A DNA stretch of 43,195 nt, from the NCBI GenBank assembly GCA_036574075.1, contig JAINCN010000064.1:1-43195 (forward strand). Direction: 5' to 3'. This stretch comes from Deltaproteobacteria bacterium (GTDB lineage: Bacteria > Desulfobacterota > Dissulfuribacteria > Dissulfuribacterales > UBA5754). The notes below the pieces were generated by a model, which worked only from the letters and a program-made list of their open reading frames with translations, made no database searches and had not been told where the DNA came from. A program made the position numbers and the translations under genes. The stretch's first letter is position 1, and every line of letters begins with the position of its first letter. Of the stretch, positions 3,071 through 25,800 are shown piece after piece.

Positions 3071-3088
3071 CAGCCAGGGAGAGATACC

Positions 3089-6603: not shown

Positions 6604-6613
6604 CAAATTGTCT

Positions 6614-6656: not shown

Positions 6657-6823
6657 GGTCGTGGGGACAAAAGACCCGCCTGGGTGTCTTCACCGTCTGG
6701 TTTTCATTTAATAAAGGAAGGGCGGGTTATCTCCGAAGGGAACCTTTTCTTTTTGGCACGCATTTGGCAACACTTTAGTCTCATAACAGCAAGTCTTCGA
6801 AGGATGGAGATAGGAGGGGATAG

Positions 6824-7714
6824 ATGGCGGCAAAAATCATCAGTGGAACGGAAATAGCCAAGCAGATTCGGGAGGAGCTAAAGGCGGAGGTCGCCGAGAT
6901 GAAGTCCAGGCACAATGTGACACCTGGGCTTGTGACCATTCTTGTGGGGGAGAACCCTGCGTCGGTTTCTTATGTTACGGCCAAACAGAGGACGGCTCAT
7001 GAGCTCGGTTTTCACTCCGTCCAGGACAACCAGCCCGCCGACATCTCGGAAGACGCCTTGCTTGCCCTTATCAAACGCTATAACGAGGATCCTGCCATCC
7101 ACGGGATCCTGGTCCAGCTCCCGCTTCCAAGGCATGTGAACGAGACCAACGTCCTTTACGCCATCGACCCGGACAAGGACGTGGACGGTTTCCATCCGGT
7201 CAACGTGGGGAAGATGGTCATCGGGGAGAGGTGTTTCCTCCCGTGCACGCCCCACGGCATCCTCGAGATGCTCATTAGGTCCGGTGTCAAGACCGAGGGT
7301 GCCGAGGTGGTCGTGGTGGGCAGGAGCAACATAGTCGGGAAGCCCATTGCCAACCTCATGCTTCAGAAGCGTCCTGCCGGGGATGCGACAGTGACCATCT
7401 GTCATACCCGGACCCGGGACCTCGCCTTTCACACGCGGCGCGCGGACATATTGATCGTGGCGGCCGGACGCCCCAAGGTCGTGACCGCTGACATGGTGAA
7501 GGAAGGGGCGGTTGTGATCGACGTCGGGGTAAACAGGATCGGCCAGACCCCTGAGGGCAAGGCGATCCTTTGCGGAGACGTGGATTTTGAGACGGTCAAG
7601 GAGAAGGCCTCGGCCATCACTCCGGTTCCAGGCGGGGTCGGCCCCATGACCATCACCATGCTCATGAAAAACACGGTCCTTGCTGCCAAGATCAGCGCCG
7701 GGATTTTGACCTGA
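6824..7714 (+). CDS. folD: Methylene-THF dehydrogenase / methenyl-THF cyclohydrolase
   Basis: Bifunctional enzyme that interconverts 10-formyl-, methenyl- and methylene-tetrahydrofolate with NAD(P). It supplies the cyclohydrolase step here, since no separate fchA is seen. The 296 residues are standard length. Catalytic Y50 and K54 lie in SYVTAKQRTA, followed by QLPLPRHVN, DPDKDVDGFHPVN, the dinucleotide motif VVVGRSNIVGKPIANLM near residue 162 and the C-terminal PVPGGVGPMTITML. The start follows a strong ATAGGAGGGGATAG ribosome site. cooS begins 80 nt downstream. Confidence 0.97.
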   Translation: MAAKIISGTEIAKQIREELKAEVAEMKSRHNVTPGLVTILVGENPASVSYVTAKQRTAHELGFHSVQDNQPADISEDALLALIKRYNEDPAIHGILVQLPLPRHVNETNVLYAIDPDKDVDGFHPVNVGKMVIGERCFLPCTPHGILEMLIRSGVKTEGAEVVVVGRSNIVGKPIANLMLQKRPAGDATVTICHTRTRDLAFHTRRADILIVAAGRPKVVTADMVKEGAVVIDVGVNRIGQTPEGKAILCGDVDFETVKEKASAITPVPGGVGPMTITMLMKNTVLAAKISAGILT

Positions 7715-7794
7715 CATACGGGGGACGAAAATGGGAGGAAGATTCCCCGGATGGGACCCTCGGGGAAGATCCTTATCCAAAGGAGAAGAGACTC

Positions 7795-9810
7795 ATGGAT
7801 ACGAGCAAACGATTCGAGAAAGGTAACGGCGGCTGCCCCCGCATCCAGTGCGAGGCCAACCGTGACGTCCTCTGCCAGTCCTGCGCCTCTGGAGTAATTA
7901 CGGCTGCCCACCGGGTGGAGATGCGGGCTACGGAGCCCTGTCTCTTTGGCAAGGGCGGGACCTGCTGCCGCAATTGCAATATGGGTCCGTGCCAGATCAT
8001 TGATGGCGTCGCCGAGATGGTCGGTATCTGCGGCGCGGACGCCTCCACGGTGGCGGCCCGGAACTTTGCGCGGATCGTCGCTGGAGGCGCCGCTGCCCAC
8101 ATCGATCACGGACGCGGGGTTACCCTCGCATTCCTGGCGACCGCAAAGGGTGAGACCCCTTACGAGATAAAGGATGCCATCAAGCTGAGGGAGACGGCCC
8201 TTCGCATCGGGATCGACCCCGGGGAAAAATCCACCACGGATCTGGCCATCGAGGTGGGTGAAAGGCTTCTCTCCGAGTTCGGGCAACAGCAAGGGACGCT
8301 CTCCTTCATAAGGCGCGCCCCCAAGGCCCGTCAGGAGGTCTGGGCCAAGGCAGGCGTGCTCCCCCGCGGTATTGACCGCGAGGTCACTGAGATGATGCAC
8401 CGCACGCACATGGGTGTGGATCAACATTACGAAAACATCCTCTTTCAGGCCGCCAGGTGCTCTCTTGCCGACGGCTGGGGCGCCTCCATGATCGCGACCG
8501 AGCTCTCCGATATCATGTTCGGAACCCCTATGCCCATCCGGGCCAAGGTGAACATCGGCGTCCTCAAGAAGGACGAGGTGAATGTCACGGTCCATGGGCA
8601 TGAACCTGTGCTTGCCGAGGCCCTCGCCATGGTGGCAAGCACCCCTGAGATCGTAGCAGCAGCGAAAAAAGTGGGTGCAAAGGGGGTGAATCTCTGCGGT
8701 GTTTGCTGCACAGGTAACGAGATCCTCATGAGGCGCGGGTTTCCCATCGCTGGGAGCTTTATCCAGCAGGAGGTGGTCCTTGCCACCGGTGCCGTGGAGG
8801 CCATGGTGGTGGATGTTCAGTGCATCATGCAGGGTGTCTCGCCCGTTTCGCGCAGTTTTCACACGGAACTCATCACCACTTCGGACCGGGCGTGGATACC
8901 CGGGGCGACGCACATCAAGTTTGACGAACACCGGGCCCTTGATACGGCCAAGGAGATCATAACCAGGGCCATCAACAGGTTTCCTGAGCGTGGCAAGCAC
9001 TACATACCCGTATATCAGATGGATGTGGTTGCCGGGTTCAGCCACGAGACCATCAACTACATCCTGGGCGGCAGGTTCAGGGGTTCCTACAAGCCGCTCA
9101 ACGACAACATAGTAAACGGACGCATCCGCGGGGTTGCTGCCATAGTCGGGTGCGACAATTACAGGGTCACGGACGAGATCCACATCGATCTTGCCCGTGA
9201 ACTTATAGCAAACAACATACTCGTGGTGGTCACAGGATGCGCGGCGACCGGCATGGGTCGCGCCGGACTCCTTGCTCCAGAGGCCATTTCCATGGCAGGA
9301 GACGGCCTTCGGGAGGTGCTCGAGGCCGTTGGGTGCCCGCCGGTCCTCCATATGGGTTCCTGTGTGGACAACAGCCGCATCCTGATCGCCCTCACCGAAA
9401 TGGTGAAGACCGGAGGGCTTGGAAACGACATCTCAGATCTTCCCGTCGTCGGGTGCGCACCGCAGTGGATGAGTGAAAAGGCCGTCTCCATAGGACAGTA
9501 CTTTGTCACAAGCGGTGCGCAGGTGGTCTTTGGGCCCAATTTCCCCACCTCTGGGTCCCGTGTAGTCACGGATTTCTGTTTCGAGGGCATGATGGAAAGA
9601 TACGGAGCGGCTTGGAACGTCGCCTCAACGGCCAACGAATTCGCCAACATCATGATCGACAGGATCAACCTCAAGAGGACCGCCCTTGGTCTTGACAAGA
9701 AGAAGGAGCGCATACTCTTTGACATGGCCATGAGGCGGGAGATAGGAAGCCCGGGTTCTCCCCTTCATGACGTGGGCTGTCACGGTCCCGGGGTGCCTGC
9801 AGGCGCATAA
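7795..9810 (+). CDS. cooS: Carbon monoxide dehydrogenase, catalytic subunit
   Basis: Ni-Fe enzyme that interconverts CO2 and CO. In this operon it is expected to supply CO to acetyl-CoA synthase. The 671 residues contain an N-terminal cysteine-rich region for the B and D clusters (C27, C30, C49, C57, C58, C61, C66). The C-cluster set is visible as VHGHEP (H267), GVCCTGNEI, VDVQCIMQG, VGCDNYRVT, VTGCAATGMGRAG and LHMGSCVDNSRI. The start has an AAAGGAGAAGAGACTC ribosome site. No nickel-insertion gene cooC/acsF lies in the window, so maturation factors must be elsewhere. Product naming is firm; acsA would be the acetogen-style symbol. Confidence 0.96.
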   Translation: MDTSKRFEKGNGGCPRIQCEANRDVLCQSCASGVITAAHRVEMRATEPCLFGKGGTCCRNCNMGPCQIIDGVAEMVGICGADASTVAARNFARIVAGGAAAHIDHGRGVTLAFLATAKGETPYEIKDAIKLRETALRIGIDPGEKSTTDLAIEVGERLLSEFGQQQGTLSFIRRAPKARQEVWAKAGVLPRGIDREVTEMMHRTHMGVDQHYENILFQAARCSLADGWGASMIATELSDIMFGTPMPIRAKVNIGVLKKDEVNVTVHGHEPVLAEALAMVASTPEIVAAAKKVGAKGVNLCGVCCTGNEILMRRGFPIAGSFIQQEVVLATGAVEAMVVDVQCIMQGVSPVSRSFHTELITTSDRAWIPGATHIKFDEHRALDTAKEIITRAINRFPERGKHYIPVYQMDVVAGFSHETINYILGGRFRGSYKPLNDNIVNGRIRGVAAIVGCDNYRVTDEIHIDLARELIANNILVVVTGCAATGMGRAGLLAPEAISMAGDGLREVLEAVGCPPVLHMGSCVDNSRILIALTEMVKTGGLGNDISDLPVVGCAPQWMSEKAVSIGQYFVTSGAQVVFGPNFPTSGSRVVTDFCFEGMMERYGAAWNVASTANEFANIMIDRINLKRTALGLDKKKERILFDMAMRREIGSPGSPLHDVGCHGPGVPAGA

Positions 9811-9867: not shown

Positions 9868-12800
9868 ATGACAGATAAAGGAAAACAAGGAGCAGTACTC
9901 GTTCTAGGTGGGGGGGTCGCTGGTGTCCAGTCGGCCCTTGATCTCGCCGATCTCGGATATTACGTCTATCTGGTGGAAAAAAAGGCCTCTATCGGCGGGG
10001 TGATGGCCCAGCTCGACAAGACCTTTCCCACCAACGACTGTTCGCTCTGAATACTCGCGCCTAAGCTGGTGGAGGCCGGTCGGTCTCCTAACATCAAGAT
10101 CCTTACTAAGGCCCGTCTCATGGCCCTTGAAGGGGAGGCAGGATGCTTTACGGCACGGGTCTATCAGGAACCCCGTTTTATCGACGAGGACAAGTGTACG
10201 GCATGCGGTACCTGCACCATGTACTGTCCGCGTCCTGTGGTGGATCTCTACAACGAGCGGCTCGACATCACCCGGGCCCCCCACATCGACTATCCACAGG
10301 CCATTCCTGCCGCCTATTACATCGACCCCAAGGTCTGTCTCCGGGTCAATTACGAGACCTGTAACCTCTGCGCCCAGACCTGTACGGCAAAGGCCATCGA
10401 TTTTTCCCAGAAGCCCAGGGAGCACGTCCTCGATGTCGGGGCAGTGGTCCTTGCGCCGGGTTTTGGAAAGATCGACCCTGCGGTCCTCGCCCGTTTCGGC
10501 TACGGAAGACATCCAGACGTGGTGACGAGTCTCGAGTTCGAGCGCCTCACCTGCGCCTCTGGCCCGACTGAGGGGCACATCGTACGTCTCTCCGACCACA
10601 AGACGCCCAAAAAGATCGCCTTTCTTCAGTGCATCGGCTCCCGGGACGAGACGTGCGGTAACGGCTATTGTTCCTCGGTCTGTTGCATGTATGCCGTAAA
10701 GGAGGCGTCCGTCGCAAAGGAACACGAGCCGGATCTCGATATCTCCATCTTTTTTATGGATGTCCGGACCCAGGGCAAGGGTTTTGACGAGTCAAGGGAG
10801 CGGGCCGAGAAGAAATACGGCATTCGGGTCATCCGGGCCCGGGTCCCCAGGGTCGAGGAGATCGACGGCCGCCTTGCCCTTACCTGGACGGATGAAGACG
10901 GGACCTCCCGCTCAGAACTCTTTGACATGGTGGTCCTTTCCGTGGGGCTTGACGCCCCTGAGGATGCCCGCCAGATCGCCGAGATCTGCGGCATCGAGCT
11001 AAACCGATATGATTTTTGCCGGACCTCTGCTGGGAGCCCCCTTTCCACCACTCGACCGGGTGTTTTCGTGGCCGGCGCCTTCCAGGGCCCGAAAGACGTG
11101 CCTGAGAGCGTAACTCAGGCCTCTGGCGTGGCATCACTTGCCTCCGAGGTACTTGCTTCTGCAAGGGGATCCCGCACCATCTCCGTCAGTTATCCTGAGG
11201 AGGATCTGGAGCTTGCGAAAGGCCCTCCCAGGATCGGGGTCTTTGTATGCCACTGCGGCGTCAACATCGCGGGCGTGGTAGATGTAAAGGCCGTCCGGGA
11301 TTATGCGGCAACCTTGGGCGACGTGGTCCTGTACGAGGACCCCATGTATTCCTGCTCCCAGGACGCCCTAAAGAACATCGCGCGTAAGATCAAGGAAAAC
11401 AGACTGAACAGGGTGGTCATCGCGGCCTGTTCCCCCAGGACCCACGAGCCCCTCTTCCAGGAGACCTTGAGATCCGTCGGGGTCAATCCTGCCCTTGTGG
11501 AGATGGCCAACATCCGGGACCAGTGTTCCTGGGTCCATGCCCAGGAGCCTGCCGAGGCCACCCAGAAGGCCATGGACCTCGTGCGCATGGCAGTGGCCAA
11601 GGCCAAGCATCTCGAACCCCTTCCGCTCCAGATGGTTTCTGTGATCCCCAAGGCCCTGGTCCTCGGCGGAGGTGCCGCTGGCATGACTGCTGCGCTCGCC
11701 ATTGCGGACCAGGGTTTTGATTGCGTCCTTGTGGAAAAGGAAGACGGGCTCGGCGGAAACCTCCGCATGCTGAAATGGACCATGGATGGCCAGGACGCGT
11801 CCGCCATTCTCTCCGATCTGATACAGAAGGTGAATGGACATCCGAGGATCCGTGTCATGACCAACGCGGTTCTCGAGAACCTCACGGGTTTCGTGGGAAA
11901 CTTCGTCTCGACCATTCGGACAGGGGATTCGAGCGAGGAGGTCAGTCACGGGGTCTGCATCATCGCGACCGGAGGAAGGCAGTACGTCCCGACGGGCTAT
12001 ATGTATGGCGAAAGCCCCAAGGTCCTCACCCAGCTCGAGCTCGAGGGACGTCTTTCCAAAGGAAAGGGCGGGCTCAAAGGGGTGAATTCCGTGGTGATGA
12101 TACAGTGCGTGGGAAGCCGTGGTGACGGCATGAACCATTGCAGCCGGGTCTGCTGCACCCAGGCGGTCAAGAACGCACTAAAAATCAAGGAAATGAAACC
12201 GGATACTGCTGTTTACGTCCTCTACCGGGACATCCGGACATTCGGTTTCCACGAGGATCTTTACAGCGAGGCCAGAAGGAAAGGTGTGGTCTTCCTCCGC
12301 TATGAGCCTGAGGATCGGCCCCAGGTTCTGAAGGCCGGAAACGGCCTCAAGGTGCGGGCTTTCGACCGTCTCCTCGGGGAGCATATCGATATCCCTGCTG
12401 GTCTCGTGGTCCTTTCCACTGGCATCGCCCCTGGGGAAAACGAGGCCCTTTCCAAGGTCATCAAGACCCCTCTCACCTCTGATGGGTTCTTTCTCGAGGC
12501 CCATGCCAAGCTCCGTCCCGTAGAGGTCTCGGTGGACGGGTTTTATCTCTGCGGACTTGCACATGGGCCCAAGTCCCTGGGTGAGTCCATCGCCCAGGCC
12601 AAGGCCGCTGCGGCCAAGGCGGTAATACCCCTTGCCAAGGGCCAGGTCTCAGTCACCCCTCTTGTCTCCCGGGTGGATCAGGAGAAATGTATCGGCTGCG
12701 GCATCTGCGAGAGCCTCTGTCCGTTCCACGCGATCCGTCTCGTCAAGGTGGACAAGAGGCGCAAGGCTGAGACCGTCACCGCCTCGTGCAAGGCCTGCGG

Positions 12801-12906
12801 CATCTGTGCGGCCCACTGCCCGACCCTTGCCATCAGCATGGGCGGATTCACCGACGAGGCCATCATGGCCCAAATCCACGCCTTCTCCGAAAGGTGCGCC
12901 TCATGA
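9868..12906 (+). CDS. hdrA: HdrA-type flavin iron-sulfur protein, selenocysteine-containing
   Basis: FAD- and Fe-S-rich HdrA, the flavin subunit of heterodisulfide-reductase-type complexes, thought to split or route electrons between NAD(P)H, ferredoxin and partner proteins. Read through the in-frame TGA at 10048-10050 it has 1012 residues with Sec61: the context [17 protein letters not shown] is where homologues have CxxC or CxxU. Order: FAD domain 1 (GGGVAGVQ, residue 14), 4Fe-4S motifs at C110-C120 and C165-C172, HdrA hallmark [13 protein letters not shown] at C461, FAD domain 2 (GGGAAGM, about 600), then two 4Fe-4S motifs at C941-C951 and C974-C984. It therefore carries two HdrA-like flavin modules. 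The ATG at 9868 follows GAGAGG. The stop overlaps mvhD by 4 nt. Confidence 0.9.
10071..10088 (+). promoter_or_regulatory. Candidate SECIS hairpin of hdrA
   Basis: GGAGGCC (10071-10077) pairs with GGTCTCC (10082-10088), one G-T pair, around the loop GGTC. The loop matches the GGUC apical motif of the E. coli fdhF SECIS. It lies 20 nt after the TGA, a little farther than typical, so the placement is less certain than for the formate dehydrogenase site. Confidence 0.5.
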
Positions 12907-13670
12907 GCAAGACACAGTTCAAGCCCCGGATCCTCGGTTTTTTCTGCCACTGGTGCTGCTACGCCGCAGCGGATGCCGCAGGGGTCGGCCGGTATCAGTA
13001 TCCACCCAATGTCCGTGTGATCCGTGTACTTTGTACCGGACGAATCGACACCCGTTTCATCCTTGAGGCCTTCAGGTGCGGCTCGGACGGGGTCTTCACC
13101 GGCGGGTGACACCTGGGCGAATGCCATTACCAGTCTGGTAATTACGAAGCACTCATAATGGCTGAGACATGCAGGCAGGTCCTCAAGGACTGCGGCGTCA
13201 ATCCGGAAAGATTCGCCCTCGAGTGGGCCTCGGCCGCGGAAGGTCCGCGTTTTGTGGAACTCATCACTGACTACGTGAGAAGGATCTCCGCCCTCGGACC
13301 TTTGGGGGAGGGGGCAGGAGAGCCGGGACGGGACGTGCTTTCCACGAGGCTCGAGGCAGCGGTCAAGGCCGCTGGGGTCCCAAAGGTGCGGACGGCCTAC
13401 GGTACCTTTGCCAAGAAGATGCATCAGGAAGGACCTTACACCGGAGATGCGATTGCGGACGGGGTGTCGAGCAAGGTCTTTCCTCCGTTTCGCCAGGAGA
13501 GGCTTTCAATTGAGGTCATGGACGTCCTGCGGAAAGGCCCGAAGGCCCTCTCAGACCTTGTCGGCGTTACCGGAGCCGGCGAGGAGGAGCTTAACGGGAT
13601 CCTGTCCGCCTTCGAGAAAAAGGGGCTTGCCTCGGATACCGGTTCCGGGTGGGTTCTGAAGGGGGAATGA
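12903..13670 (+). CDS. mvhD: MvhD-type iron-sulfur protein, selenocysteine-containing
   Basis: MvhD-family [2Fe-2S] protein that passes electrons to HdrA. Read through the in-frame TGA at 13107-13109 it has 255 residues with Sec69. The motif FTGG-U-HLGECHYQSGN has Cys or Sec at that point in the family. Other ligands are FCHWCCY (C15, C18, C19) and RVLCTGRID (C44). The conserved domain ends near residue 140. The remaining 115 residues form a tail with a possible winged-helix-like end (LSIEVMDVLRKGPKALSDL). The ATG overlaps the hdrA stop (ATGA), which implies coupled translation and a shared complex. Without readthrough the product would lose most of the protein. Confidence 0.88.
13126..13142 (+). 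promoter_or_regulatory. Candidate SECIS hairpin of mvhD
   Basis: ATTACCA (13126-13132) pairs perfectly with TGGTAAT (13136-13142) around the loop GTC. It starts 16 nt after the TGA, within the window where bacterial SECIS elements act, and has a GU in the apical loop as expected. Confidence 0.6.
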
Positions 13671-13677
13671 GACGCAG

Positions 13678-14235
13678 ATGACCATACATATCTCAAGCGC
13701 AAACGCCGATTTTGGTGCGTCCATTGCGGGCCACGCGGGGTGCTCGACCCTTGCCCAGTGCTATACCTGCGGCTCGTGCAGCTCGGTCTGCCCTGTGGAA
13801 AAGGTCGTCCCGGACTTTGATCCTAGAAAGATCGTCCATATGGTTGCCCTCGGTCTCAAAGAGATGCTTCTCAGCTCGGACATTATCTGGGCCTGTTCCC
13901 AGTGTCAGAGCTGCGTTCCGGTATGCCCCCAGGAGGTACGCTGCAGCGACGTCATAAAGGCCCTTCGCGAGGAGGCAGTGGAAAAGGGCCTTTTGGACGA
14001 GGAACGAAGGTTTTCCCTCGGACTCTTCGCCCGGGTGGATGCGGGAAAATGCGTCGCATGCCTCACCTGTGTGCGACTCTGTCCGTTTGCGGCGCCGAGG
14101 ATCGATCCCGGAGGATATGCCGTCATCGATCCTGGGCTCTGTCGGGCCTGCGGCATCTGCGTGACGGCGTGCCCTGCAGAGGCGATCACCCTTCTTCCCT
14201 CCCTTGAGGGGCTGGGCATGAGGAAAGGATCCTGA
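13678..14235 (+). CDS. hdrC: HdrC-like protein with extra C-terminal ferredoxin domain
   Basis: Electron-transfer subunit with four [4Fe-4S] motifs in 185 residues. The first pair is the HdrC signature: C28, C31, C34, C38 and C73, C76, C79, C83. The second pair is a bacterial-ferredoxin domain: C125, C128, C131, C135 and C155, C158, C161, C165. Plain HdrC has only the first pair, so this is HdrC plus a fused two-cluster ferredoxin. No HdrB (CCG-domain) gene accompanies it. It starts 7 nt after mvhD and is followed 1 nt later by a second MvhD-like gene, so it probably links HdrA/MvhD to MetV/MetF. Confidence 0.83.
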   Translation: MTIHISSANADFGASIAGHAGCSTLAQCYTCGSCSSVCPVEKVVPDFDPRKIVHMVALGLKEMLLSSDIIWACSQCQSCVPVCPQEVRCSDVIKALREEAVEKGLLDEERRFSLGLFARVDAGKCVACLTCVRLCPFAAPRIDPGGYAVIDPGLCRACGICVTACPAEAITLLPSLEGLGMRKGS

Positions 14236-14236
14236 T

Positions 14237-14647
14237 ATGACGGAAGGACATTCGAGCATAGTCGGTATCTGCTGCAATTACGCAGGTAGGGTCTCTGAAG
14301 AGGCCTTGCGCGAGGCAGGTCTTTTGCCAGAAGGGGTCAGGATCGAGAGGCTTCCGTGCACAGGCCGGCTCGAGGTGACCACCCTCCTCGATGCCTTTGA
14401 GGCAGGGGCGGAAGCGGTCTTTGTGGCCGGCTGCGAGGAGGGGACCTGCCACAATCTCTCCGGCAGCCACAGGGCGCAAAAAAAGGTGGGTGCTGCCAAG
14501 GGAATCCTTGGAGAGCTGGATATGGATCCAGGGTTGGTGGAGATGTTTTTCGTCCCCCGAGGAGAGACCGGGCCTATTGTCGCTGCGGCCCGGGAGATGG
14601 CCTCCCGGGTTGCAGGGACCAAAAAGGGGCAAAGGAGCGAAAGATGA
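14237..14647 (+). CDS. Second MvhD-like iron-sulfur protein (Cys form)
   Basis: 136 residues of the MvhD family. Visible ligands are GICCNYAG (C12, C13), RLPCTGRLE (C41) and VAGCEEGTCHN (C66, C71). C66 aligns with the Sec69 of the first MvhD in this operon, so the two are Cys/Sec paralogues. It lacks the long C-terminal tail of the first. It lies 1 nt after hdrC and overlaps metV by 4 nt (ATGA). The placement suggests it is the electron entry point to the MetV/MetF reductase. The family is sure and the partner is inferred. Confidence 0.8.
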   Translation: MTEGHSSIVGICCNYAGRVSEEALREAGLLPEGVRIERLPCTGRLEVTTLLDAFEAGAEAVFVAGCEEGTCHNLSGSHRAQKKVGAAKGILGELDMDPGLVEMFFVPRGETGPIVAAAREMASRVAGTKKGQRSER

Positions 14648-15312
14648 TCATCGCAGAACGAAAACCCCTTCGAGAGATCCTCGACATGATCTCCGGCATG
14701 GAGAAGGTCCTCATTCTCGGTTGTCGGGGATGTGTGGCAGTCTGTTCAGCGGGCGGGGACGCGGAGGTGGACGTCCTTACCTCGGCCTTGAAACTCGGAA
14801 GAAAGAGACAGGGAAGTCCGATCCATATCGATAAGGATACCCTTGTGCGTCAGTGTGACCCTGAATACCTCGAACCCATCAAGTCCATTGGGCGCAAGTA
14901 TGATGCCGTCCTTTCCATGGCATGCGGTGTGGGAGTCAACTTCATCGCCGACCGATGTCCTGGGGTGAATGTCCTACCCGCTCTCAACACGACTTTTTAC
15001 GGAGCCAATCTCTCGAGCGGGGAATGGAAGGAGATGTGTGCGGGGTGCGGGGCCTGTGTCCTCCACCTCACGGGTGGGCTCTGTCCTGTTGCGAGATGCG
15101 CCAAGAGCCTCTCTAACGGACCTTGCGGGGGGTCGGTCGGCGGTCGCTGCGAGATCGATCCCAACGTCTCCTGCGTCTGGAACCTCATTTATGACAAACT
15201 TTCCGAACTCAAGCGATCCGAGGACATGAAGGAGATCATGCCCATTCGGGACTGGAGGACCGCGGGTCATGGCGGTCCCCGCAACCGGAGGAGGGAGGAC
15301 CTGCTGCCGTGA
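14644..15312 (+). CDS. metV: MetV, partner of methylene-THF reductase
   Basis: Zinc/iron-sulfur protein of the MTHFR C-terminal-domain family that partners MetF in acetogens and passes electrons to its flavin. The 222 residues have an N-terminal LGCRGCVAVC (C27, C30, C34) and a cysteine-rich C-terminal part with MCAGCGACVLH, GGLCPVARC and NGPCGG, the usual MetV signature. It overlaps the MvhD-like gene upstream (ATGA) and the metF-acsD fusion downstream (GTGA). In Moorella-type acetogens MetV and MetF also sit with hdr and mvhD genes, so this context is expected. Confidence 0.9.
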   Translation: MIIAERKPLREILDMISGMEKVLILGCRGCVAVCSAGGDAEVDVLTSALKLGRKRQGSPIHIDKDTLVRQCDPEYLEPIKSIGRKYDAVLSMACGVGVNFIADRCPGVNVLPALNTTFYGANLSSGEWKEMCAGCGACVLHLTGGLCPVARCAKSLSNGPCGGSVGGRCEIDPNVSCVWNLIYDKLSELKRSEDMKEIMPIRDWRTAGHGGPRNRRREDLLP

Positions 15313-18300
15313 AAGCTGCAAGCAATCTGGAACACGTCCTGAGATCAGGGGCTTTCGCCGTGACAGGCGAGCTTGGCCCGCCAAAGAACGGCAACCCCGA
15401 GGTCGTGAGGGAGAAGGCCAGGATCCTCAAGGGGGTGGTGGATGCGGCCAACATCACCGATTGCCAGACGGCGATCGTGCGTATGTCGAGCCTCACCGCC
15501 GGCCTTATCGCCCTTTCAGAGGGGGTCGAGCCCGTCATGCAGATGACCTGCCGAGACCGGAACAGGATCGGCATGCAATCCGATCTCCTCGGGGCCTCTG
15601 CGCTCGGGATCAGAAACCTGCTCTGTATCACCGGAGATCACCAGAAGTTCGGGAACCACCCCCAGTCCAAGGGCGTCTTTGACATGGACTCCATCCAGAT
15701 GCTCGGGATGGTCAGGGCCATGAGAGACGAAAAGAGGTTTCAGTGCGGAGAGGCCATAAAGGAGGCGGAACCGCGTTTTTTCCTCGGGGCTGCGGCAAAC
15801 CCTTTTGCAGATCCCTTTGAGTACCGACCTGTAAGGCTCGGGAAGAAGGTCAAAGCAGGTGCGGACTTCATCCAGACCCAGATCATCTACAACGTGGAAA
15901 AGTTCGCCCGTTTCATGGAGATGGTTCGTGACCTCGGGCTTCATGAAAAGGTCTTCATCCTTGCCGGCATCACGCCCCCCAAATCCCTCGGGATGGCCCG
16001 GTACATGAAATACAATGTCTCGGGGCTCGACGTGCCGGACGAGATCCTCGCAAGGCTAAAGGATGCCAAGGATCAGCGGGAGGAAGGGATCGAGATCGCT
16101 GTGGACATCATCCGCCAGGTGCGCGAGATCCCCGGGGTCGCAGGCGTCCATATCATGGCCATCGAATGGGAACAGGCAGTCGCCGAGATCGCCTCGCGGG
16201 CCGGACTCCTCCCGAGGCCTGCTTATCAGAATGTGGTGCCCGTTCTTGTGAACAGGGCGGCTCTCGAGGAGGCCGTGGCCACGGCGAAAAAGGAGTCCGA
16301 AGACGCCCATGTCCAGGAGATCGAGCGGGTAAAGGCCGAGGCCCAGGCCTCCCGGGACCTCGTGGTTCGTGAAAGGGAGCGGGCTCAGGGCGAGATCGCC
16401 GGTCTCAAGAAGGATCTGGCCAAGGCCCTGGAGGAAGCGCGTTCCAAGGCCGAGGAACTAAGGCGTATCCGGGAAGAGCTTTCCAAAACCAGGCAGGAGT
16501 TGCAGAACAGGCCTATGACAACTGAAAGCATGCAACCATCCATCACCCCTTCACAGGGATCGGAAGGCGCTGGCGTGGCCCTCACGCCGAGGGAAAAACG
16601 GGTCCTTAGGTCCATCAGCGCCGGACTCGAGGCCCTGAGAAAGGGTCTCGGCCTCTCCGAGGACCAGTTCGCTGCCATCAGGCACTTCATCGAGGCCGAG
16701 CTCACGATCAATGCCGAGGTCTTTTCTGAGGCACGGGCCGTGCCGGCACCCATTGCAAGGCCGATGGAAGCGCCTCTTCCGGAAATGACCCCGGCCCCAG
16801 CCGAGGCTGTGGCCCCTGCCCCTCCGGAGGTCTCTCCTGAGGATCAAGAGCGCACGAAACAGGTGACACGGCTCATTGCCAAGGGGAATGTGTCTCTCCA
16901 GAAGAGGGCCGCTCGTGAGGCCATAGAGGCCTTCGAGGCCGCCCTTGCCCTGGATCCAGGGAACCAGAAGGCAACAGACGGGCTTGCGCGGGCAAAGGAA
17001 CTTCTTCCAGCAGCGCCGCAGGCCGCGCCTGCCGTAGGGGGCATGCCACCCTGTCCGCCTGAGCTTTCTTTCGAGGAGTGGCAAAGGAAATGGGTGATCC
17101 GCCTCGTGGCCAGGGGAAATGTGGCACTTCAGAAGGGAGACAGGGAGGGCGCGCGCGCCTCTTTTGAAGAGGCCCTTCGGATCGAACCCGAAAACGCCAA
17201 GGCGAAAAAGGGGCTTTCCGTTCTTGAGTCCGGCGCCCTGCCTTCTCCTCCGAGTCCTGCCCCTGAGGCGCCCCATCCAGGTCCAGCTCTTGCTGCTACG
17301 CAGGCTCCGTCACCCCTTGCTGCCCCAAAACCCGAGGCAGCCCCGTCAAGGCCCTCGGCCCCGCCCGAGCCGAAGCCGGTCCCTGCTCCAGCGCCTGCTG
17401 CCGTCCCGCTCGGTGTGGGCATACTGCCTCCGGAGACCGTTCCTCTTGCCGAAAGGGCGAGGGGGGTGGATTCCGGGCTTTATCTCGAACCTGCAGGCGC
17501 AGCCATAAGGGCCGTGACCATTGGCGATGGGCCTTCCGCCATCACCGTGGGGGGTGAATCGGCACTTCCGTTCCATCTCTTCGAAGGGGAGATGCCTTTT
17601 GCCCCACGCATCGCCTTCGAGGTCCTGGATTCACCGCCCGAGGACTGGCCCGAGGTCCTTACCCGTCACTATGCCGACGTCCTCTCCGATCCCGTTGCCT
17701 GGGCGAAAAAATGTGTGAGCGAATTCGGGGCGAAGTCGATCTGTCTTTCCCTTGTTAGCACGGATCCCAACGGCAGAAACGTGCCTGCTGCAGAGGCAGC
17801 CAAGGCTGCAAAGGCCGTGCTCGATGCCATCGAGGTCCCGGTGGTCCTCTGGGGCTGCGGAAACGCAGAAAAGGACACGGAGACCCTGCGTGAGGTCACG
17901 AGCCTCATCGGCAGCCGCAAGGTCTGCATCTCCCCGCTTACTGACGCCAATTTCCGGAATCTGGGCGCAACCGCCATGGCCTTTCAGCTTCCGGTCGTGG
18001 CCTCGACCCCCATTGACGTCAACCTCGCAAAACAGCTCAATATCCTCCTCCAGAATCTCGGCCTTCCTTTGGAGAACATCCTTATGGATCCGTCCATCGG
18101 GGCCGTGGGATACGGCCTCGAGTACACGTATTCGGTCATGGAGAGGATCCGGCTTGCGGCCCTCACTCAGCAGGACGACAAGCTTCAGGTCCCGTTCATC
18201 TGCCATATTGGTCGCGAGGTCTGGAAGACCAAGGAGTGCAAGCTCCCCAGCGACGATCTCATGGGGGACCAGGAGAAAAGGGGCGTGCTCATGGAGGCGG

Positions 18301-18401
18301 TGACCGCAGCTCTCCTCCTCCTTGCCGGAGGAGAGCTTCTCGTCATGCGGCACCCGACTGCGATCTCTCTTACAGAAACCCTCATCAAGTCTTTCATGTA
18401 A
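15309..18401 (+). CDS. metF-acsD: MetF-AcsD fusion: methylene-THF reductase joined to corrinoid protein small subunit
   Basis: One uninterrupted 1030-residue frame. Residues 1-312 are a MetF TIM barrel (VTGELGPPKNG with E21, MTCRDRNRIGMQ, LLCITGDH, IQTQIIYNVEKF), reducing methylene- to methyl-THF. Residues 318-402 are a charged coiled coil. Residues 424-472 are a small helical domain (LTPREKRVLRSISAG). Residues 509-567 and 586-642 are two TPR-like helical hairpins that resemble each other (RLIAKGNVSLQKR and RLVARGNVALQKG). Residues 643-710 are a Pro/Ala linker. Residues 710-1030 are AcsD/CdhD (ITVGGESALPFH, WGCGNAEKD, ILMDPSIGAVGYGLEYTYSVMERI). AcsD with AcsC holds the corrinoid that receives the methyl group. 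The GTG start has a very strong GGAGGAGGGAGG site and overlaps metV. No separate metF or acsD is present, so the fusion is probably functional. Confidence 0.9.
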   Translation: MKAASNLEHVLRSGAFAVTGELGPPKNGNPEVVREKARILKGVVDAANITDCQTAIVRMSSLTAGLIALSEGVEPVMQMTCRDRNRIGMQSDLLGASALGIRNLLCITGDHQKFGNHPQSKGVFDMDSIQMLGMVRAMRDEKRFQCGEAIKEAEPRFFLGAAANPFADPFEYRPVRLGKKVKAGADFIQTQIIYNVEKFARFMEMVRDLGLHEKVFILAGITPPKSLGMARYMKYNVSGLDVPDEILARLKDAKDQREEGIEIAVDIIRQVREIPGVAGVHIMAIEWEQAVAEIASRAGLLPRPAYQNVVPVLVNRAALEEAVATAKKESEDAHVQEIERVKAEAQASRDLVVRERERAQGEIAGLKKDLAKALEEARSKAEELRRIREELSKTRQELQNRPMTTESMQPSITPSQGSEGAGVALTPREKRVLRSISAGLEALRKGLGLSEDQFAAIRHFIEAELTINAEVFSEARAVPAPIARPMEAPLPEMTPAPAEAVAPAPPEVSPEDQERTKQVTRLIAKGNVSLQKRAAREAIEAFEAALALDPGNQKATDGLARAKELLPAAPQAAPAVGGMPPCPPELSFEEWQRKWVIRLVARGNVALQKGDREGARASFEEALRIEPENAKAKKGLSVLESGALPSPPSPAPEAPHPGPALAATQAPSPLAAPKPEAAPSRPSAPPEPKPVPAPAPAAVPLGVGILPPETVPLAERARGVDSGLYLEPAGAAIRAVTIGDGPSAITVGGESALPFHLFEGEMPFAPRIAFEVLDSPPEDWPEVLTRHYADVLSDPVAWAKKCVSEFGAKSICLSLVSTDPNGRNVPAAEAAKAAKAVLDAIEVPVVLWGCGNAEKDTETLREVTSLIGSRKVCISPLTDANFRNLGATAMAFQLPVVASTPIDVNLAKQLNILLQNLGLPLENILMDPSIGAVGYGLEYTYSVMERIRLAALTQQDDKLQVPFICHIGREVWKTKECKLPSDDLMGDQEKRGVLMEAVTAALLLLAGGELLVMRHPTAISLTETLIKSFM

Positions 18402-18421: not shown

Positions 18422-20629
18422 ATGTCCAAGATCATCTGTTCGGCTGCCATCCGGGGCGCTCACAAGATTGTCGACATGGCCGAGGAGAGATACCAGGAGG
18501 CCCTCAAGAAGTACGGTCCGGAACACGAGGTGGCCTTTCCGAACACAGCCTATTATCTGCCTATCATTTACAGCATTCTCGGGGCGCCGGTAAAACAGCT
18601 CGGCGACATGAAGGATATCTTTGCGGAATGCCGAAAGCTCCTTCCGCCCCTTGTGAGCGAGACGAATTGGCTTCCCTATCTCGCCCCTGCCCTTGATGCG
18701 GGTATGGCCACCTTCTTTGCCGAGGAGATGTTAGAGGCGATCCGCTATATCGAGGCCCCGGACTTTTATACCAAGACCGAGGACCCGCTTGGCGAAGACC
18801 GTTTCTGGCTTGGGGCCGCGGACGACATCATCTTCCGCAAGCGGGGCGTCGAGTTCGTGGATGGGACAGCGCCTGGTTTTGCAGCCATCCTGGGGACCCC
18901 TTCGGACCCAGCAGTGGCATCCAAGATCGCCCTCGAACTCCAGGAGAAGAACCTTTACATCTTCATGCATGACCAGACGAACGGGATCAGCATGCCCGAC
19001 CAGCTCCGCAAGGAGAAGGTCCAGATTGGCTGGTCCACGCGGCTTGTTTCCTTTGGCCCTACGTATACGTCAGCGGTCTTTGCCATCGGTTTTGCGTGTC
19101 GGGTGGCCCTTGGATTTGGCGGTGTCAAGCCTGGGGACTACAAGGGGAACCTCCTCTACAACAAGGACCGGACATTTGCATTCGTCATGGCCTTCGGGCC
19201 CGTCTCTGACGAATGGTACGCCAACGCCGCAGGGGCCATCAACTGGGGCTTTCCCACCATCTCCGACTGGGACATCCCCCAGATCCTGCCTACTGGTATC
19301 TGCACCTACGAACACGTGGTGAGCAAGGTCCCGCACGATGAGATCGTCCAGAAAGCGATCGAGGTGCGGGGGCTCAAGGTCTCGGTCACCAAGATCGACA
19401 TCCCCGTGGCCTACGGCCCTGCCTTCGAGGGGGAACGGGTCAGAAAGGACGATCTTTATCTGGAGTGCGGCGGCGGAAGGACCCTTGGTGTGGAGCTCCT
19501 CGTCTCGAAGGATCTCGATGAGGTCCAGGACGGGCTTGTCACGGTCGAAGGCCCTGAGATGACTGATGTCCAGCCCGGGGCCAAGCTCCCGCTTGCTATC
19601 CTGGCTGAGGTGGCGGGCCGTGCCATGCAGTCCGATTTCGAGCCCATTCTCGAACGCCAGTTCCATCACCTTATAAACTACGCCCAGGGGATCATGCACA
19701 TCGGCCAGAGGAACATCATGTGGCTCCGGGTCGGGAAGCAGGCCATCGAGAAGGGTTTCAAGTTCGAGCACATTGGTCGCATCCTCCACGGGAAGCTCCA
19801 CCAGGAGTTCGGGGCCATCGTGGACAAGGTCCAGGTGAAGATCTATACGAGCGAGGAAAAGGTCAAGGAGGTCATGGAGCTTGCGCGCCAGGTCTATGCT
19901 GCACGCGACGAGCGTCTTGGATCCATGACCGACGAGACAGAAGAGATCTTCTACTCTTGCACCCTCTGCCAGTCCTTTGCGCCGACTCACGTCTGTGTCA
20001 TCACCCCGGAGCGGATCGGGATGTGCGGCGCGTACAACTGGCTCGACGGCAAGGCCTCTTACGAGATCAACCCCACCGGTCCGAACCAACCCATCAAAAA
20101 AGGTGAATGCATCGACCCCAACCTCGGGCAGTGGGCCGGGGTCAACGAATTCGTGAAGAAGGCCTCTCGCGGCAAGGTGGAGAGGGTGAGCGCCTACAGC
20201 ATCATGGTGGACCCCATGACCGCGTGCGGATGTTTCGAATGCGTATCCACCATGCTTCCCACCTGTAACGGGCTCATGATCGTGAACCGCGACTACCTCG
20301 GAATGACCCCGAGCGGGATGAAGTTCACGACCCTTGCTGGCATGGTCGGAGGCGGAAACGTCACCCCGGGTTTTCTCGGGGTCTCGAAGCACTACATCTG
20401 CAGCCGCAAGTTCATGAAGGCTGAAGGTGGACTCAAGCGCGTGGTATGGATGCCCAAGATGCTCAAGGACGAGCTTCGTGACCGACTCCAGCAAAGGGCC
20501 GAGGAGGAAGGCATCCCGAATCTTTTGGATATGATTGCAGACGAGACCGTTGGGACCACTGAGGAAGAGGTACTGAAATTCCTCCAGGAGAAGGGGCATC
20601 CCGCCCTTTCCATGGAAATGGTCGTTTAG
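18422..20629 (+). CDS. acsB: Acetyl-CoA synthase (CODH/ACS beta subunit)
   Basis: Condenses CO, a methyl group from the corrinoid protein and CoA into acetyl-CoA. The 735 residues match the long bacterial form that keeps the N-terminal CODH-contacting domain. The A-cluster ligands are all present: C513, C516, C525 and C535 bind the [4Fe-4S] cube, and C602-G-C604 binds the distal nickel. Each is shifted by +7 relative to the Moorella numbering. The frame is open upstream, but the ATG at 18422 is chosen for its ACGGAGGAACGATA ribosome site 20 nt after the fusion gene. acsC follows 13 nt later. Confidence 0.97.
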   Translation: MSKIICSAAIRGAHKIVDMAEERYQEALKKYGPEHEVAFPNTAYYLPIIYSILGAPVKQLGDMKDIFAECRKLLPPLVSETNWLPYLAPALDAGMATFFAEEMLEAIRYIEAPDFYTKTEDPLGEDRFWLGAADDIIFRKRGVEFVDGTAPGFAAILGTPSDPAVASKIALELQEKNLYIFMHDQTNGISMPDQLRKEKVQIGWSTRLVSFGPTYTSAVFAIGFACRVALGFGGVKPGDYKGNLLYNKDRTFAFVMAFGPVSDEWYANAAGAINWGFPTISDWDIPQILPTGICTYEHVVSKVPHDEIVQKAIEVRGLKVSVTKIDIPVAYGPAFEGERVRKDDLYLECGGGRTLGVELLVSKDLDEVQDGLVTVEGPEMTDVQPGAKLPLAILAEVAGRAMQSDFEPILERQFHHLINYAQGIMHIGQRNIMWLRVGKQAIEKGFKFEHIGRILHGKLHQEFGAIVDKVQVKIYTSEEKVKEVMELARQVYAARDERLGSMTDETEEIFYSCTLCQSFAPTHVCVITPERIGMCGAYNWLDGKASYEINPTGPNQPIKKGECIDPNLGQWAGVNEFVKKASRGKVERVSAYSIMVDPMTACGCFECVSTMLPTCNGLMIVNRDYLGMTPSGMKFTTLAGMVGGGNVTPGFLGVSKHYICSRKFMKAEGGLKRVVWMPKMLKDELRDRLQQRAEEEGIPNLLDMIADETVGTTEEEVLKFLQEKGHPALSMEMVV

Positions 20630-20642
20630 GAGGGGAGACGAC

Positions 20643-21995
20643 ATGGCGCTCACAGGTATACAGATCCTAAAGATGCTCCCCAAGAAAAACTGTGGGGAAT
20701 GCGGTGTGCCCACGTGTCTCGCCTTTGCCATGAAGGTAGCGGCCGGACAGGCTGACATCGGGTCGTGTCCTTATGTATCCGAAGAGGTGAAAGAAAAGGT
20801 GGGAGAGGCCTCGGCCCCGCCCATCCGGACCGTCAGGATCGGGGGTGGGGATCATCCATTCGAGATGGGTGGAGAGACCTGCCTCTACCGCCACGAGAAA
20901 CGTTTCGAGCATCCGACTGGGATCGGGGTCCTCGTCCGGACTGATATGTCCGAGGACGAGATCGCAGGACGCCTTTCCCGGTTTACCTCTCTCCGCTACG
21001 AGCGCGTCGGCCTCACACTCAAGGCGGATATCATAGCCGTCAAGGACACGGGCGGCGATGCAGGGGCCTTTGCCACGCTTGTCACCCGTGTGCGGAGCGG
21101 GTGTCCGGATGCGGCCCTGGTCCTCATGAGTGAACGTCCCGACTGCCTTTCCGCCGGGCTGAAGGCGTGCGGGGACCACAAGCCGCTCCTCTACGCGGCG
21201 ACAGCCGGGAATGCGGAGGCCATGGCCGCGCTCGCCAAGGAGACCGGCTGCCCCTTGGCGGTAAAGGGAAACACGCTCGGGGATACTGCCGCCCTTTCCG
21301 AACGTCTCCAGAAGGAGGGGCTCAAGGACCTGGTCCTCGATTCGGGCTCCCGGACGCTACGGGGCTCCTTTGAGGACCAGATCGTCTTTCGGCGGGCATC
21401 CACCAGGCACAAATACAAGCCGTTTGGCTTTCCGAGCATAACGTTTCCTTGTGAGATGACGGACGACCCCCTCCTCGAGAGTCTCATCGCATCGGTCCAT
21501 ATAGCCAAGTACGCAGGCGCGGTGATCCTCTCTGATCTTCAGGGTGATACCCTTTTCCCGATCCTTCTCGAACGGCTCAACCTCTTTACCGATCCCCAGC
21601 GTCCCATGGTGGTCCAGGAGGACATCTATCCTATCAATGGCCCTGGGGAGGATTCTCCTGTACTTATCACCTGCAACTTTTCCCTCACGTATTTCATCGT
21701 CTCAGGCGAGGTGGAGGGGAGCAAGGTCCCGTCCTGGCTCCTCATCAAGAACACCGAAGGGCTATCGGTCCTGACGGCATGGGCAGCTGGTAAGTTCAGC
21801 GCGGATCTCATCGCTGCCTTTGTCAAGAAGTGCGGGATCGAGAACAAGGTCCGCCACAGAAATCTCATCATCCCAGGTTATCTCGCCTCCATCAAAGGGG
21901 AGCTTGAGGAGGAACTGTCGGGCTGGAACATCCAGATAGGACCCCGCGAGGCGAGTCATATCCCAGCGTATCTCAGGGAATGGAGGCCTGCATAA
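20643..21995 (+). CDS. acsC: Corrinoid iron-sulfur protein, large subunit
   Basis: Large (gamma) subunit of the corrinoid iron-sulfur protein that carries the methyl group from methyl-THF to acetyl-CoA synthase. The 450 residues begin with the [4Fe-4S] motif C17-x2-C20-x4-C25-x16-C42 (NCGECGVPTC, then GSCPYV), which reductively reactivates the cobalt. A TIM-barrel middle and a C-terminal corrinoid-binding region follow (VLITCNFSLTYFIVSGEVEGSKVPSWLL is in that part). Its partner AcsD is the C-terminal third of the fusion protein upstream. The ribosome site is AGGAGGGGAGACGAC. Confidence 0.95.
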   Translation: MALTGIQILKMLPKKNCGECGVPTCLAFAMKVAAGQADIGSCPYVSEEVKEKVGEASAPPIRTVRIGGGDHPFEMGGETCLYRHEKRFEHPTGIGVLVRTDMSEDEIAGRLSRFTSLRYERVGLTLKADIIAVKDTGGDAGAFATLVTRVRSGCPDAALVLMSERPDCLSAGLKACGDHKPLLYAATAGNAEAMAALAKETGCPLAVKGNTLGDTAALSERLQKEGLKDLVLDSGSRTLRGSFEDQIVFRRASTRHKYKPFGFPSITFPCEMTDDPLLESLIASVHIAKYAGAVILSDLQGDTLFPILLERLNLFTDPQRPMVVQEDIYPINGPGEDSPVLITCNFSLTYFIVSGEVEGSKVPSWLLIKNTEGLSVLTAWAAGKFSADLIAAFVKKCGIENKVRHRNLIIPGYLASIKGELEEELSGWNIQIGPREASHIPAYLREWRPA

Positions 21996-21996
21996 G

Positions 21997-22887
21997 ATGT
22001 ACGTCCACTGCATTGCAGAAAGCATAAATATCATGGGGGCCAGGACCGGGAAGGCCATGAAGGAGCGCGACCCCGGCCCGATCCAGCTCATGGCCAACGA
22101 GGAGGTCGCAAACGGAGCGGATTTTCTCGATCTCAACATCGGACCTGCCCGCAAGGACGGCCCAGATCTAATGCCGTGGATCGTCAGGCAGGTGGAGGAG
22201 GTGACCGACTGCCCTCTTTCCCTCGATACGACCAATGCCGACGCCCTCATAGCTGGGATCAGGGCCGCCGCCCACCCGAGCAGGCACATCATGAATTCTA
22301 TCTCCCTTCAGCCCGAGCGGATGAAGAAGCTGATCCCTGTGGCGGCAGAGGCCGGCTGTTACGTCGTGGGGCTCCTCTGGGGGGTAGAAGGGATGCCGAG
22401 GGACTCCAACGAGCGGGCTGCCATGACGGTGGATCTGGCCATGGCCATGAATGAGGCGGGGATTCCGAATGAAAGGATCCTCTTCGATCCCATCGCCACC
22501 CCCATCACCCTCGGAGCGGATCAGGTCCTGAGTGGCATTCAGTATCTCGCCATGCTTCAGGACATCGCGCCCGGGGCCAAATCCACGGTCGGGCTTTCGA
22601 ACGTCTCGAACGGGGTTGCGGCGGAAAAGCGTCATTACCTCAACCGGGCCTATCTTGCCATGCTCATGAAATACGGGATCTGGTCCGCCATCGTGGATGC
22701 GTACGACGAGGAGCTCTTGAGCCTTGCCCATGGAGAGAGGCCCGAACTCTTGAAGGTGGTACACGATATCATGGACGGAAACGAGCCCAATCCCTCTGAC
22801 CTGACGCCCAAGGAACTCGAATACTACAAGACGACCCGGGTTCTCATGGGGAAGACCATCTTCTCCGAGGCCTGGCTCGAGCTGTAA
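21997..22887 (+). CDS. acsE: Methyl-THF:corrinoid iron-sulfur protein methyltransferase
   Basis: Pterin-binding TIM-barrel enzyme that transfers the methyl group from methyl-THF to the cobalt of AcsC/AcsD. The 296 residues are of the usual AcsE size. It shows ESINIMGA near the start, the pterin-site block NGADFLDLNIGPARKDG, PLSLDTTNADAL, MNSISLQPERM and STVGLSNVSNGV. The N-terminus MYVHCIAESIN differs from the commoner LIIGERIN form. It starts 1 nt after the acsC stop, with GGAGG upstream. It acts exactly between the two activities of the MetF-AcsD fusion. Confidence 0.92.
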   Translation: MYVHCIAESINIMGARTGKAMKERDPGPIQLMANEEVANGADFLDLNIGPARKDGPDLMPWIVRQVEEVTDCPLSLDTTNADALIAGIRAAAHPSRHIMNSISLQPERMKKLIPVAAEAGCYVVGLLWGVEGMPRDSNERAAMTVDLAMAMNEAGIPNERILFDPIATPITLGADQVLSGIQYLAMLQDIAPGAKSTVGLSNVSNGVAAEKRHYLNRAYLAMLMKYGIWSAIVDAYDEELLSLAHGERPELLKVVHDIMDGNEPNPSDLTPKELEYYKTTRVLMGKTIFSEAWLEL

Positions 22888-22895
22888 GTAAGGCC

Positions 22896-25800
22896 ATGAA
22901 GACCGTTTCCCTCGAGATCGACGGACAGACGATAACGGTGGAGGATGGGACGACCATCCTCGAAGCCGCCCGATCAGCCGGGCTGGCTATCCCCACCCTT
23001 TGTCACATATCTGGCGTTTCCGAGTCTAGGATCCCGTGTCTCCTGTGCATGGTGGAGGTCGAGGGCAAGGGAAGGCGCCGCTCCTGCGTGACCCCTGTAG
23101 AGGAGGGGATGAAGATCTGGACGCGCACGAAGGAGCTGGAGGAGTTTCGTGCCCATCGCCTCCAGCTCCTTGCGGATGTCCATTACGGCGACTGCAAGGC
23201 CCCGTGCAACCTCACGTGCCCGGGCGGGATCAACGTCCAGGGGTACGTGAACCTTGTGGCCCGGGGGGAATACCGGGCGGCCCTGGGTCTCATCAAGGAG
23301 AAGAACCCCCTTCCCCTTTCTGTGGGCAGGGTCTGCCCCAGGTTCTGCGAGACCCGCTGCCGGCGGATCCTTGTGGACGAACCCATAGCCATCAATCATC
23401 TCAAGAGGTTTGTGGCTGATTACGCCCTGGAGCACGGTCCTATCGAGGAGGCGGTAGGTCCTGCCACAGGACGGAGGGTTGCTGTCATCGGAGGCGGGCC
23501 TGCCGGGCTCTCAGCCGCCTATTATCTTCGAAAATACGGTCATGATGTCACGATCTTCGAGGCCGAGAACGATCTCGGAGGGGCGCTCAGGTACTGGATA
23601 CCCGGTTACAAGCTGCCGAACCGGGTCGTGGACAGCGAGGTCCAGTCCATCCTTTCCATGGGGGTGCATGTCAAGACAGGAAAACGCTGGGGGCAGGACT
23701 TCACGCTTGATGACCTCAAGACCCAGGGTTACGAGGCGATCTTCATCGCCACGGGTCTTCACCGCCAAAAGGCCCTTGACGTGGAGGGCGGGGAGTATGC
23801 CGTTGACGGCCTCAAGTTTTTGAGAGACGTCAACGAGGGAAGACCCCCTGTGATCGGTGACCAGGTCCTGGTCGTAGGCGGTGGGGATATTGCGGTGGAT
23901 GCCGCCCGGAGCGCCAGGAGGCTTGGGGCATCGAATGTAACCGTTATCTACCCTCGCTCCCGTGTGGAGCTCTCTGCCCAGCAGCGGGATATTGCAGAGG
24001 CGGAGAAGGAAGGCGTGCAGTTCTTTCTCATGGCCATGCCGCTTCGCATCCACCGCATGGAAGGACGCATTCGCGTGGAGATGGCGCGGACGATCCTTGG
24101 GGAACCGGATGCAAAGGGTATTCGTCAACCGGAACCCATGCCCGGATCCCTGCTTAACTGGAACGGGGATTGTGTCATCAATGCAACAGGCCAGGAGGGG
24201 GACGGCTCCTTCAGGAGTTATGGGAAGATCGAGTCCTCTATCCAGCTCACGCCCAGGAAAACGATCAAATCCAATCCGAGCACCATGGCGACCAATGTGC
24301 CTGGGATCTATGCCGGAGGGGATGTGGCGAGTGGACCCCGAACGGTCATCCAGGCGGTTTCAGCCGGCAGGAGGGCTGCGGAATCCATCCATGAGTTCCT
24401 CTTTTCTGTGAAGACGCCTGCAGAACCCAGATTCAATTTCTCCAAGGGGAAAAGGTTCGAGGAGGTGGATCTCCACAACTTCGACAGAGTTCCCGTCCGT
24501 CTGAGCGAGGTCATGCCTGCCCGGCCGCCGGAAAGGCGCGTGACGGATTTCGGTGAGGCAGAATTGGGTTTCAGTGAAGAGATGGCGCGCCGCGAGGCAA
24601 GTCGGTGTCTGAAATGCGGTTGTACAGGCCTTTCTAAATGTACATTCCGGGAGCTTTCCATCCAGTACAAGGTCAACACCTCGTTGGCACCGGGCCGCCT
24701 TCGGCAATCCATCGAAGACAGCCACCCTTTCATCTCCGTGGATCCGAACAAGTGCATCGCCTGTACCCGGTGTGAACGAAGCTGTAAATATGACGCCATC
24801 GCTTTCCAGGCTGAGCACGATGAAACCGGGCATATCACGTCGGTCCAGATCAGATTGACGGAAAGATGCGTGTCCTGCGGGGCATGCGTGGATGCGTGTC
24901 CCACAGGGGCCCTTGTCAAGAAGGCCGTTGTCGTCCCGATCCTTCCCGGTGAGGCGGAGACCGTAAAAAGCGTCTGCACGTATTGTGGAACAGGATGCAG
25001 TCTCGAACTCGTCGTGACGCACGGGGCCATCCTCGAGGTGAAGGCCGACAGATCAAGTCCTCCCAATTACGGCGCGCTTTGCGTAAAGGGCCGGTTCGGG
25101 TATACCTTTTACCGGCATCCCGAACGGCTCAAAAGACCGCTCGTGCGTGAAGACATCGACGAGCCGTTTCGGGAGGTGGACTGGGATGAGGCCATACGCC
25201 TGGTCGCTGGCAGATTCCGGCAGCTCCGGGACGCCTACGGGTCAAACTGCCTCGGTGTCCTCTCCTCGTCCCGGTGTACGAACGAGGAGAACTATCTCTT
25301 GCAGAAATTCACCCGCGGGGTCTTGGGGACCAACAATATCGACAACTGCGCCCGGGTCTGACACGCCCCATCGGTCAGCGGTCTGCTGGCCACACTTGGA
25401 AGCGGAGCGGCAACGACCCCGTTCTCGCAGATTGTTGGCACGGAACTCCTCTTCATCTGCGGATCAAACACGGCCGAAGCCCATCCCATTGTTGGGCTCA
25501 AGGTCCTGGAGGCGGTCAAAAAGGGGACCAGGCTTGTTGTCATAGACCCGAGGCGGACAGTGGTCGCGGCCCTTGCAGAGGCCCAGGAAGGAGGCATCTG
25601 GCTTCGTCTGAGACCTGGCACGAATATACCCCTCTTGAACGGGATCTTGCGGGTCATCTTTGAGGAAGGGCTTGCCAACGAGGAGTTCATCCGGGAGAGG
25701 ACCGAGGGCGTGGAGGCGGTCAAGGCCCACGTCATGGACTATGAGCTCTCCCAAGTGGAGGAGATCACTGGGGTGCCAGTGGAGCAGATCCGCGAGGCCG

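Follow-up and report, generated by a model that had tools for sequence, protein, structure and literature searches.

A conserved MetF–AcsD fusion gene in the Wood–Ljungdahl cluster of a Dissulfuribacterales bacterium

We analyzed a stretch of 43,195 nucleotides from a metagenome-assembled genome of the order Dissulfuribacterales (the whole stretch is called the window below) and found that MetF, the methylene-THF reductase (MTHFR), and AcsD, the small subunit of the corrinoid protein CFeSP, are joined in a single protein. The fusion is real and conserved and probably functional. In the Wood–Ljungdahl pathway, methyl-THF is the product of MetF; AcsE transfers its methyl group to the cobalt of CFeSP (AcsC–AcsD), which delivers it to ACS (AcsB).

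The gene, its neighbours and its two enzyme domains

Translation of the fusion frame from the window gave 1030 codons with zero internal stops. GGAGG lies upstream of the start codon, and the first 4 bases of the gene (GTGA) also include the metV stop. The gene, its parts and its neighbours are as follows.

4840–9810, + strand: fhs, folD and acsA, the remaining Wood–Ljungdahl cluster
10069–14647, + strand: HdrA-like, MvhD-like, ferredoxin/HdrC-like and MvhD-like genes of a MetFV–Hdr–Mvh-type redox complex (Pfam, NCBIfam, synteny)
14644–15312, + strand: metV-like gene (DUF5981), directly upstream of the fusion gene and overlapping it
15309–18401, + strand: metF–acsD fusion gene, GTG start, TAA stop
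15309–16223, + strand: MetF (MTHFR) domain, residues 1–305 (Pfam, homologue alignment, AlphaFold2, solved MTHFRs)
16254–16496, + strand: predicted single long helix or coiled coil, residues 316–396 (AlphaFold2, periodicity)
16584–16718, + strand: conserved helical hairpin, residues 426–470 (dN/dS, Pfam search, 13-genome search, folding)
16833–17018, + strand: TPR-like unit 1, residues 509–570 (alignment, AlphaFold2, Foldseek)
17031–17243, + strand: TPR unit 2, residues 575–645, with the conserved lead-in PPCPxELxxEEWxRKWVIR (Pfam, alignment, Foldseek)
17244–17444, + strand: Pro/Ala-rich low-confidence linker, residues 646–712 (AlphaFold2, composition)
17502–18398, + strand: AcsD (CFeSP small subunit) domain, residues 732–1030 (Pfam, NCBIfam, PDB matches)
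18422–20629, + strand: acsB (ACS), its start moved from the ORF start 18236 to the ATG at 18422 behind the Shine–Dalgarno sequence GGAGG
20643–21995, + strand: acsC (CFeSP large subunit), the encoded partner of AcsD (Pfam, NCBIfam)
21997–22887, + strand: acsE (methyl-THF:CFeSP methyltransferase) (Pfam, NCBIfam)

The domains follow each other in the order MetF, long helix, helical hairpin, two TPR-like units, Pro/Ala linker and AcsD. A first-pass annotation of this DNA had already placed MetF and AcsD in one 1030-residue frame with this domain order; the open frame together with the Pfam, NCBIfam and PDB matches bears out the former, and Pfam, NCBIfam and AlphaFold2 agree on the latter. It had also proposed a structure prediction, and the AlphaFold2 model of the whole protein indeed contained a MetF-like barrel (1–300), a helix (316–396), a hairpin (427–469), TPR-like helices (510–564 and 588–641) and then AcsD, with low-confidence linkers at 471–508 and 646–712. 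Confidence within the domains was moderate and the pTM was 0.42, so that the relative placement of the domains is not fixed by the model.

The N-terminal half matched Pfam MTHFR (PF02219) at residues 8–299 with an E-value of 1.8e-39 (136 bits against a cut-off of 24). Its barrel resembles the folds of the Thermus and E. coli MTHFRs, and solved MTHFRs match it in sequence too. The catalytic residues of the E. coli enzyme, which we take to be E28, D120 and Q183, have counterparts in E21 (GELGPP), D110 (TGDH) and Q191 (QTQ), which are invariant in an alignment of 25 homologues; D110 and Q191 align with the solved MTHFRs, and E21 was assigned by its motif only.

The C-terminal half matched Pfam CdhD at 736–965 (E 1.9e-39), and the NCBIfam AcsD models cover 731–1029. 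PRK04452.1-2 exceeds its cut-off and NF003376 scores 360 bits against a cut-off of 280, whereas the whole-protein cut-off of NF040759 is missed by the AcsD domain (289 against 430). Residues 13–302 of the CFeSP small subunit 2h9a_B match residues 732–1023 of the fusion with an E-value of 1.2e-86, and the small subunits of PDB 2H9A, 4DJD and 9FZY align with the entire AcsD domain (E 1e-86 to 3e-65), although they are free subunits of about 310 aa. The AcsD part had been placed at 710–1030; a complete AcsD domain is present, but it begins at about 731, not 710.

The window had been said to hold no separate metF or acsD. For acsD this extends to the whole genome (99.9% complete), in which we found no other copy, so that the fusion is the sole one. 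For metF it also holds in that no second Wood–Ljungdahl-type metF was found elsewhere in the genome, with the addition that two further MTHFR-domain proteins, both of other kinds, lie outside the window; one of them is a 640-aa homocysteine methyltransferase/MTHFR. The other, a 530-aa protein at L034:1303-2892, consists of MTHFR fused to a MetV-type DUF5981 and stands right after a selB-like gene (L034:1-1299, same genome). A genome from our comparison that has the fusion also carries a distant second AcsD (L049, G002:C81:608-1504; 54% identical) in a 516-aa frame.

The surroundings resemble those of the MetFV–HdrABC–MvhD complex of Moorella thermoacetica (the MetFV–HdrABC complex is described in PMC10553843) in that MetF adjoins metV, hdr and mvhD genes, but MetF is a separate protein there and carries AcsD here. 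At 22896–27017 (+ strand), the window also encodes a fusion protein in which an NAD(P)-binding GltD-like/Fe-S part precedes a formate dehydrogenase alpha subunit. Its frame contains one in-frame TGA, probably selenocysteine (residue 822, RVUHAPSV), and ordinary gene callers would break it at 25361.

Conservation of the frame and make-up of the linker

Among 45 genomes of the same order, which represent 11 families, 32 carry the intact one-frame fusion (57–86% identity), and in most of the remainder the fusion is cut at contig ends; G014, G028 and G044 gave only distant MTHFR matches. The metagenome-assembled source and the frame-split versions in the loci L117, L121 and L133 might raise the suspicion that an assembly or sequencing artefact had joined two genes, but the intact frame recurs in these 32 independent genomes and in about 40 genomes of other groups, among them the records of Desulfurivibrio sp. 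AMeS2 and Thermosulfurimonas dismutans S95, and the fusion appears in published annotation. In L117, L121 and L133, the last a cable bacterium assembly, frameshifts within MetF break the fusion frame and are probably sequencing errors.

Between the window and a congener (86% identical), dN/dS is lowest in MetF (0.04), followed by AcsD (0.09), the hairpin (0.10), the TPR units (about 0.2) and the coil (0.30). Purifying selection was thus found in every linker segment for which dN/dS can be estimated; the Pro/Ala linker (646–706) is too diverged for dN/dS and stands outside this statement. Since the frame is open order-wide and the coil, hairpin and TPR units are under purifying selection, the linker is, on this comparative evidence, translated and constrained. 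With the frame intact in these genomes, most of the others cut by contig ends and the estimable linker segments under purifying selection, an artefact is hardly conceivable.

The long helix spans 81 residues, and its a/d hydrophobic periodicity is above that of shuffled sequences (p 0.005). When the linker was modelled alone, the same helices appeared, with pLDDT >90 in the coil and TPR units, and Foldseek with this model matched TPR structures. Pfam TPR_2 was detected at 599–629 (E 5e-10, 39 bits against a cut-off of 27), while unit 1 is merely TPR-like and is absent from several members of the order. The TPR units were added in this order; weak TPR-like repeats also occur in a Thermodesulfobacteriales MAG (L110).

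The hairpin (about 49 residues) gave only noise against Pfam, even at an E-value of 10, and matches no known family there. Each of 13 genomes of the order has one copy, always inside the fusion, and a search of these genomes for the hairpin as a docking module in other proteins found none. The linker profile also detects it in the fusions of Desulfobulbia. Because the hairpin is the most strongly constrained part of the linker, it stands out among the linker segments as the candidate element for docking or oligomerisation.

Distribution, origin and earlier descriptions

In a scan of public genomes, the same one-frame domain order was found in about 50 of the best 80 loci. The fusion is common across a large group of bacteria of the sulfur cycle. 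In this order the fusion has 959–1074 residues with a linker of about 420–455 aa. The linker is about 230–330 aa in Desulfobulbia, including Desulfurivibrio, Desulfocapsa and cable bacteria, about 195–260 aa in Thermodesulfobacteria such as Thermosulfurimonas and Caldimicrobium, and about 110 aa in one further family. In the genomes examined outside these groups, metF and acsD are encoded separately. The gene order hdrA-mvhD-hdrC-mvhD-metV-metF/acsD-acsB-acsC-acsE is shared, and in three Desulfobacterales loci (L112, L154 and L155) metF and acsD are adjacent and unfused in an otherwise identical operon, an arrangement that resembles the pre-fusion state. Loss of the metF stop would then have merged these neighbouring operon genes into one.

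The fused AcsD domains form a single clade in the tree (support 100). In the midpoint-rooted MetF tree, this order and Desulfobulbia group together (92), with the thermophile MetFs at the base. Given one AcsD clade and a MetF tree that leaves the thermophiles unplaced, the fusion probably, though not certainly, arose only once. In one relative, L148, a stop, a Shine–Dalgarno sequence and an ATG lie between metF and acsD (7360–7450, − strand); its AcsD retains an N-terminal extension of about 107 residues and nests inside the fused clade, an apparent gene fission by which the fusion was split again. A single 801-aa frame of the same locus (1461–3863, − strand; CdhD + FeS + Pterin_bind) encodes both AcsC and AcsE. 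Since a relative with split metF and acsD has joined acsC to acsE, tethering of CFeSP to methyl-branch enzymes appears to recur.

The arrangement had been thought undescribed. Our database search for the same domain order found it in Desulfobulbia, cable bacteria and Thermodesulfobacteria, and Melton et al. 2016 (PMC5016858), who compared the cluster of Desulfurivibrio alkaliphilus AHT2 with that of delta proteobacterium MLMS-1, list an "mthfr/acsD ... fusion" in AHT2. Because this paper names it, the fusion is already known at the annotation level, although it has drawn little notice. This was the one clear mention in the literature searched, in which we found no discussion of its function. 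In AHT2, as here, MetF is followed by AcsD within the acs cluster. A relative in the AHT2 lineage (L099, 906 aa) has a short helix, the hairpin, an Ala/Lys/Glu-rich linker and no TPR, whereas the linker here is longer, with the 81-residue helix and TPR-like units. In relatives of that lineage, acsE and metV are found at other sites in the genome, whereas both are in the operon here. New are the long variant with coiled coil and TPR units and the unnamed hairpin, which is private to the fusion and common to this order and Desulfobulbia.

The locus L108 of Thermosulfurimonas dismutans S95 encodes an 818-aa fusion in an operon with the gene order seen here, hdrA-mvhD-hdrC-mvhD-metV-fusion-acsB-acsC-acsE, but its linker is about 195 aa long and Glu/Pro-rich, with one short helix pair and no TPR. 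In T. dismutans, TDIS_1006 is annotated only as methylenetetrahydrofolate reductase (PMC4911364), and we infer that it is the L108 fusion gene. Another report lists acsABC, two metF and no metV (PMC7117923). Both this listing and the plain MTHFR presumably refer to the fusion, which may explain such annotation gaps in genome papers; fused proteins could also be misjudged in pathway surveys that demand acsD on the basis of query coverage.

Proposed role of the fusion

We consider it quite probable that the fusion is a working bifunctional Wood–Ljungdahl protein, whose linker tethers MetF to CFeSP, sets their stoichiometry and raises methyl-THF near AcsE. The N-terminal half would act as MetF together with MetV and probably the Hdr/Mvh subunits encoded upstream, and the C-terminal half would pair as AcsD with AcsC. 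The linker would serve as a tether, long and for the most part flexible, whose conserved hairpin mediates docking or oligomerisation and which in this order also contains TPR-like units. The fused form had been proposed as the probable working one, with which the sole acsD of the genome and the lack of a supported internal AcsD start agree. Cleavage in the Pro/Ala linker or an internal start could instead release separate MetF and AcsD to do the work; the low-confidence stretches 471–508 and 646–712 would be protease-accessible, and in-frame GTG codons occur at residues 703–747. However, no Shine–Dalgarno-preceded internal start before the AcsD domain was found in the window protein, none of whose GTGs has such a motif. 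Nor do the members of the order share a start position, and this course is therefore very unlikely.

If the protein stays intact, a fixed MetF:CFeSP stoichiometry would follow directly from the fusion. We infer that the fusion also tethers the two enzymes, keeping the maker of methyl-THF near CFeSP where AcsE docks and probably making the transfer of methyl-THF shorter, and a higher local level of methyl-THF for AcsE, and so for AcsB, is plausible. The earlier suggestion that methyl-THF is channelled is reasonable, but channelling, dimerisation through the coiled coil and a partner of the TPR units can only be hypothesised. In Desulfobulbia the fusion persists with metV and acsE located elsewhere in the genome, so its value would be independent of having both genes in the operon. 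With linkers of about 110 to 450 residues and a dispensable TPR unit 1, a single precise geometry is disfavoured.

The split in L148 is a counterpoint to the tether. Together with the wide variation in linker length and content and the neighbouring metF and acsD of the unfused state, it would suit a device for co-expression and stoichiometry only, in which the halves fold and work independently, with the linker serving chiefly as a spacer and kinetic coupling absent. A pure spacer, however, would need no hairpin with a dN/dS of 0.10 kept from this order to Desulfobulbia, and we judge this explanation possible but doubtful. Beyond the tethered bifunctional protein that we prefer, the hairpin and TPR units might join MetF/MetV–Hdr to CFeSP–AcsE–ACS as the scaffold of a metabolon, with methyl-THF bypassing the bulk pool; such a scaffold seems rather unlikely to us. 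If it exists, the reductive methyl branch would be physically coupled to acetyl-CoA synthesis.
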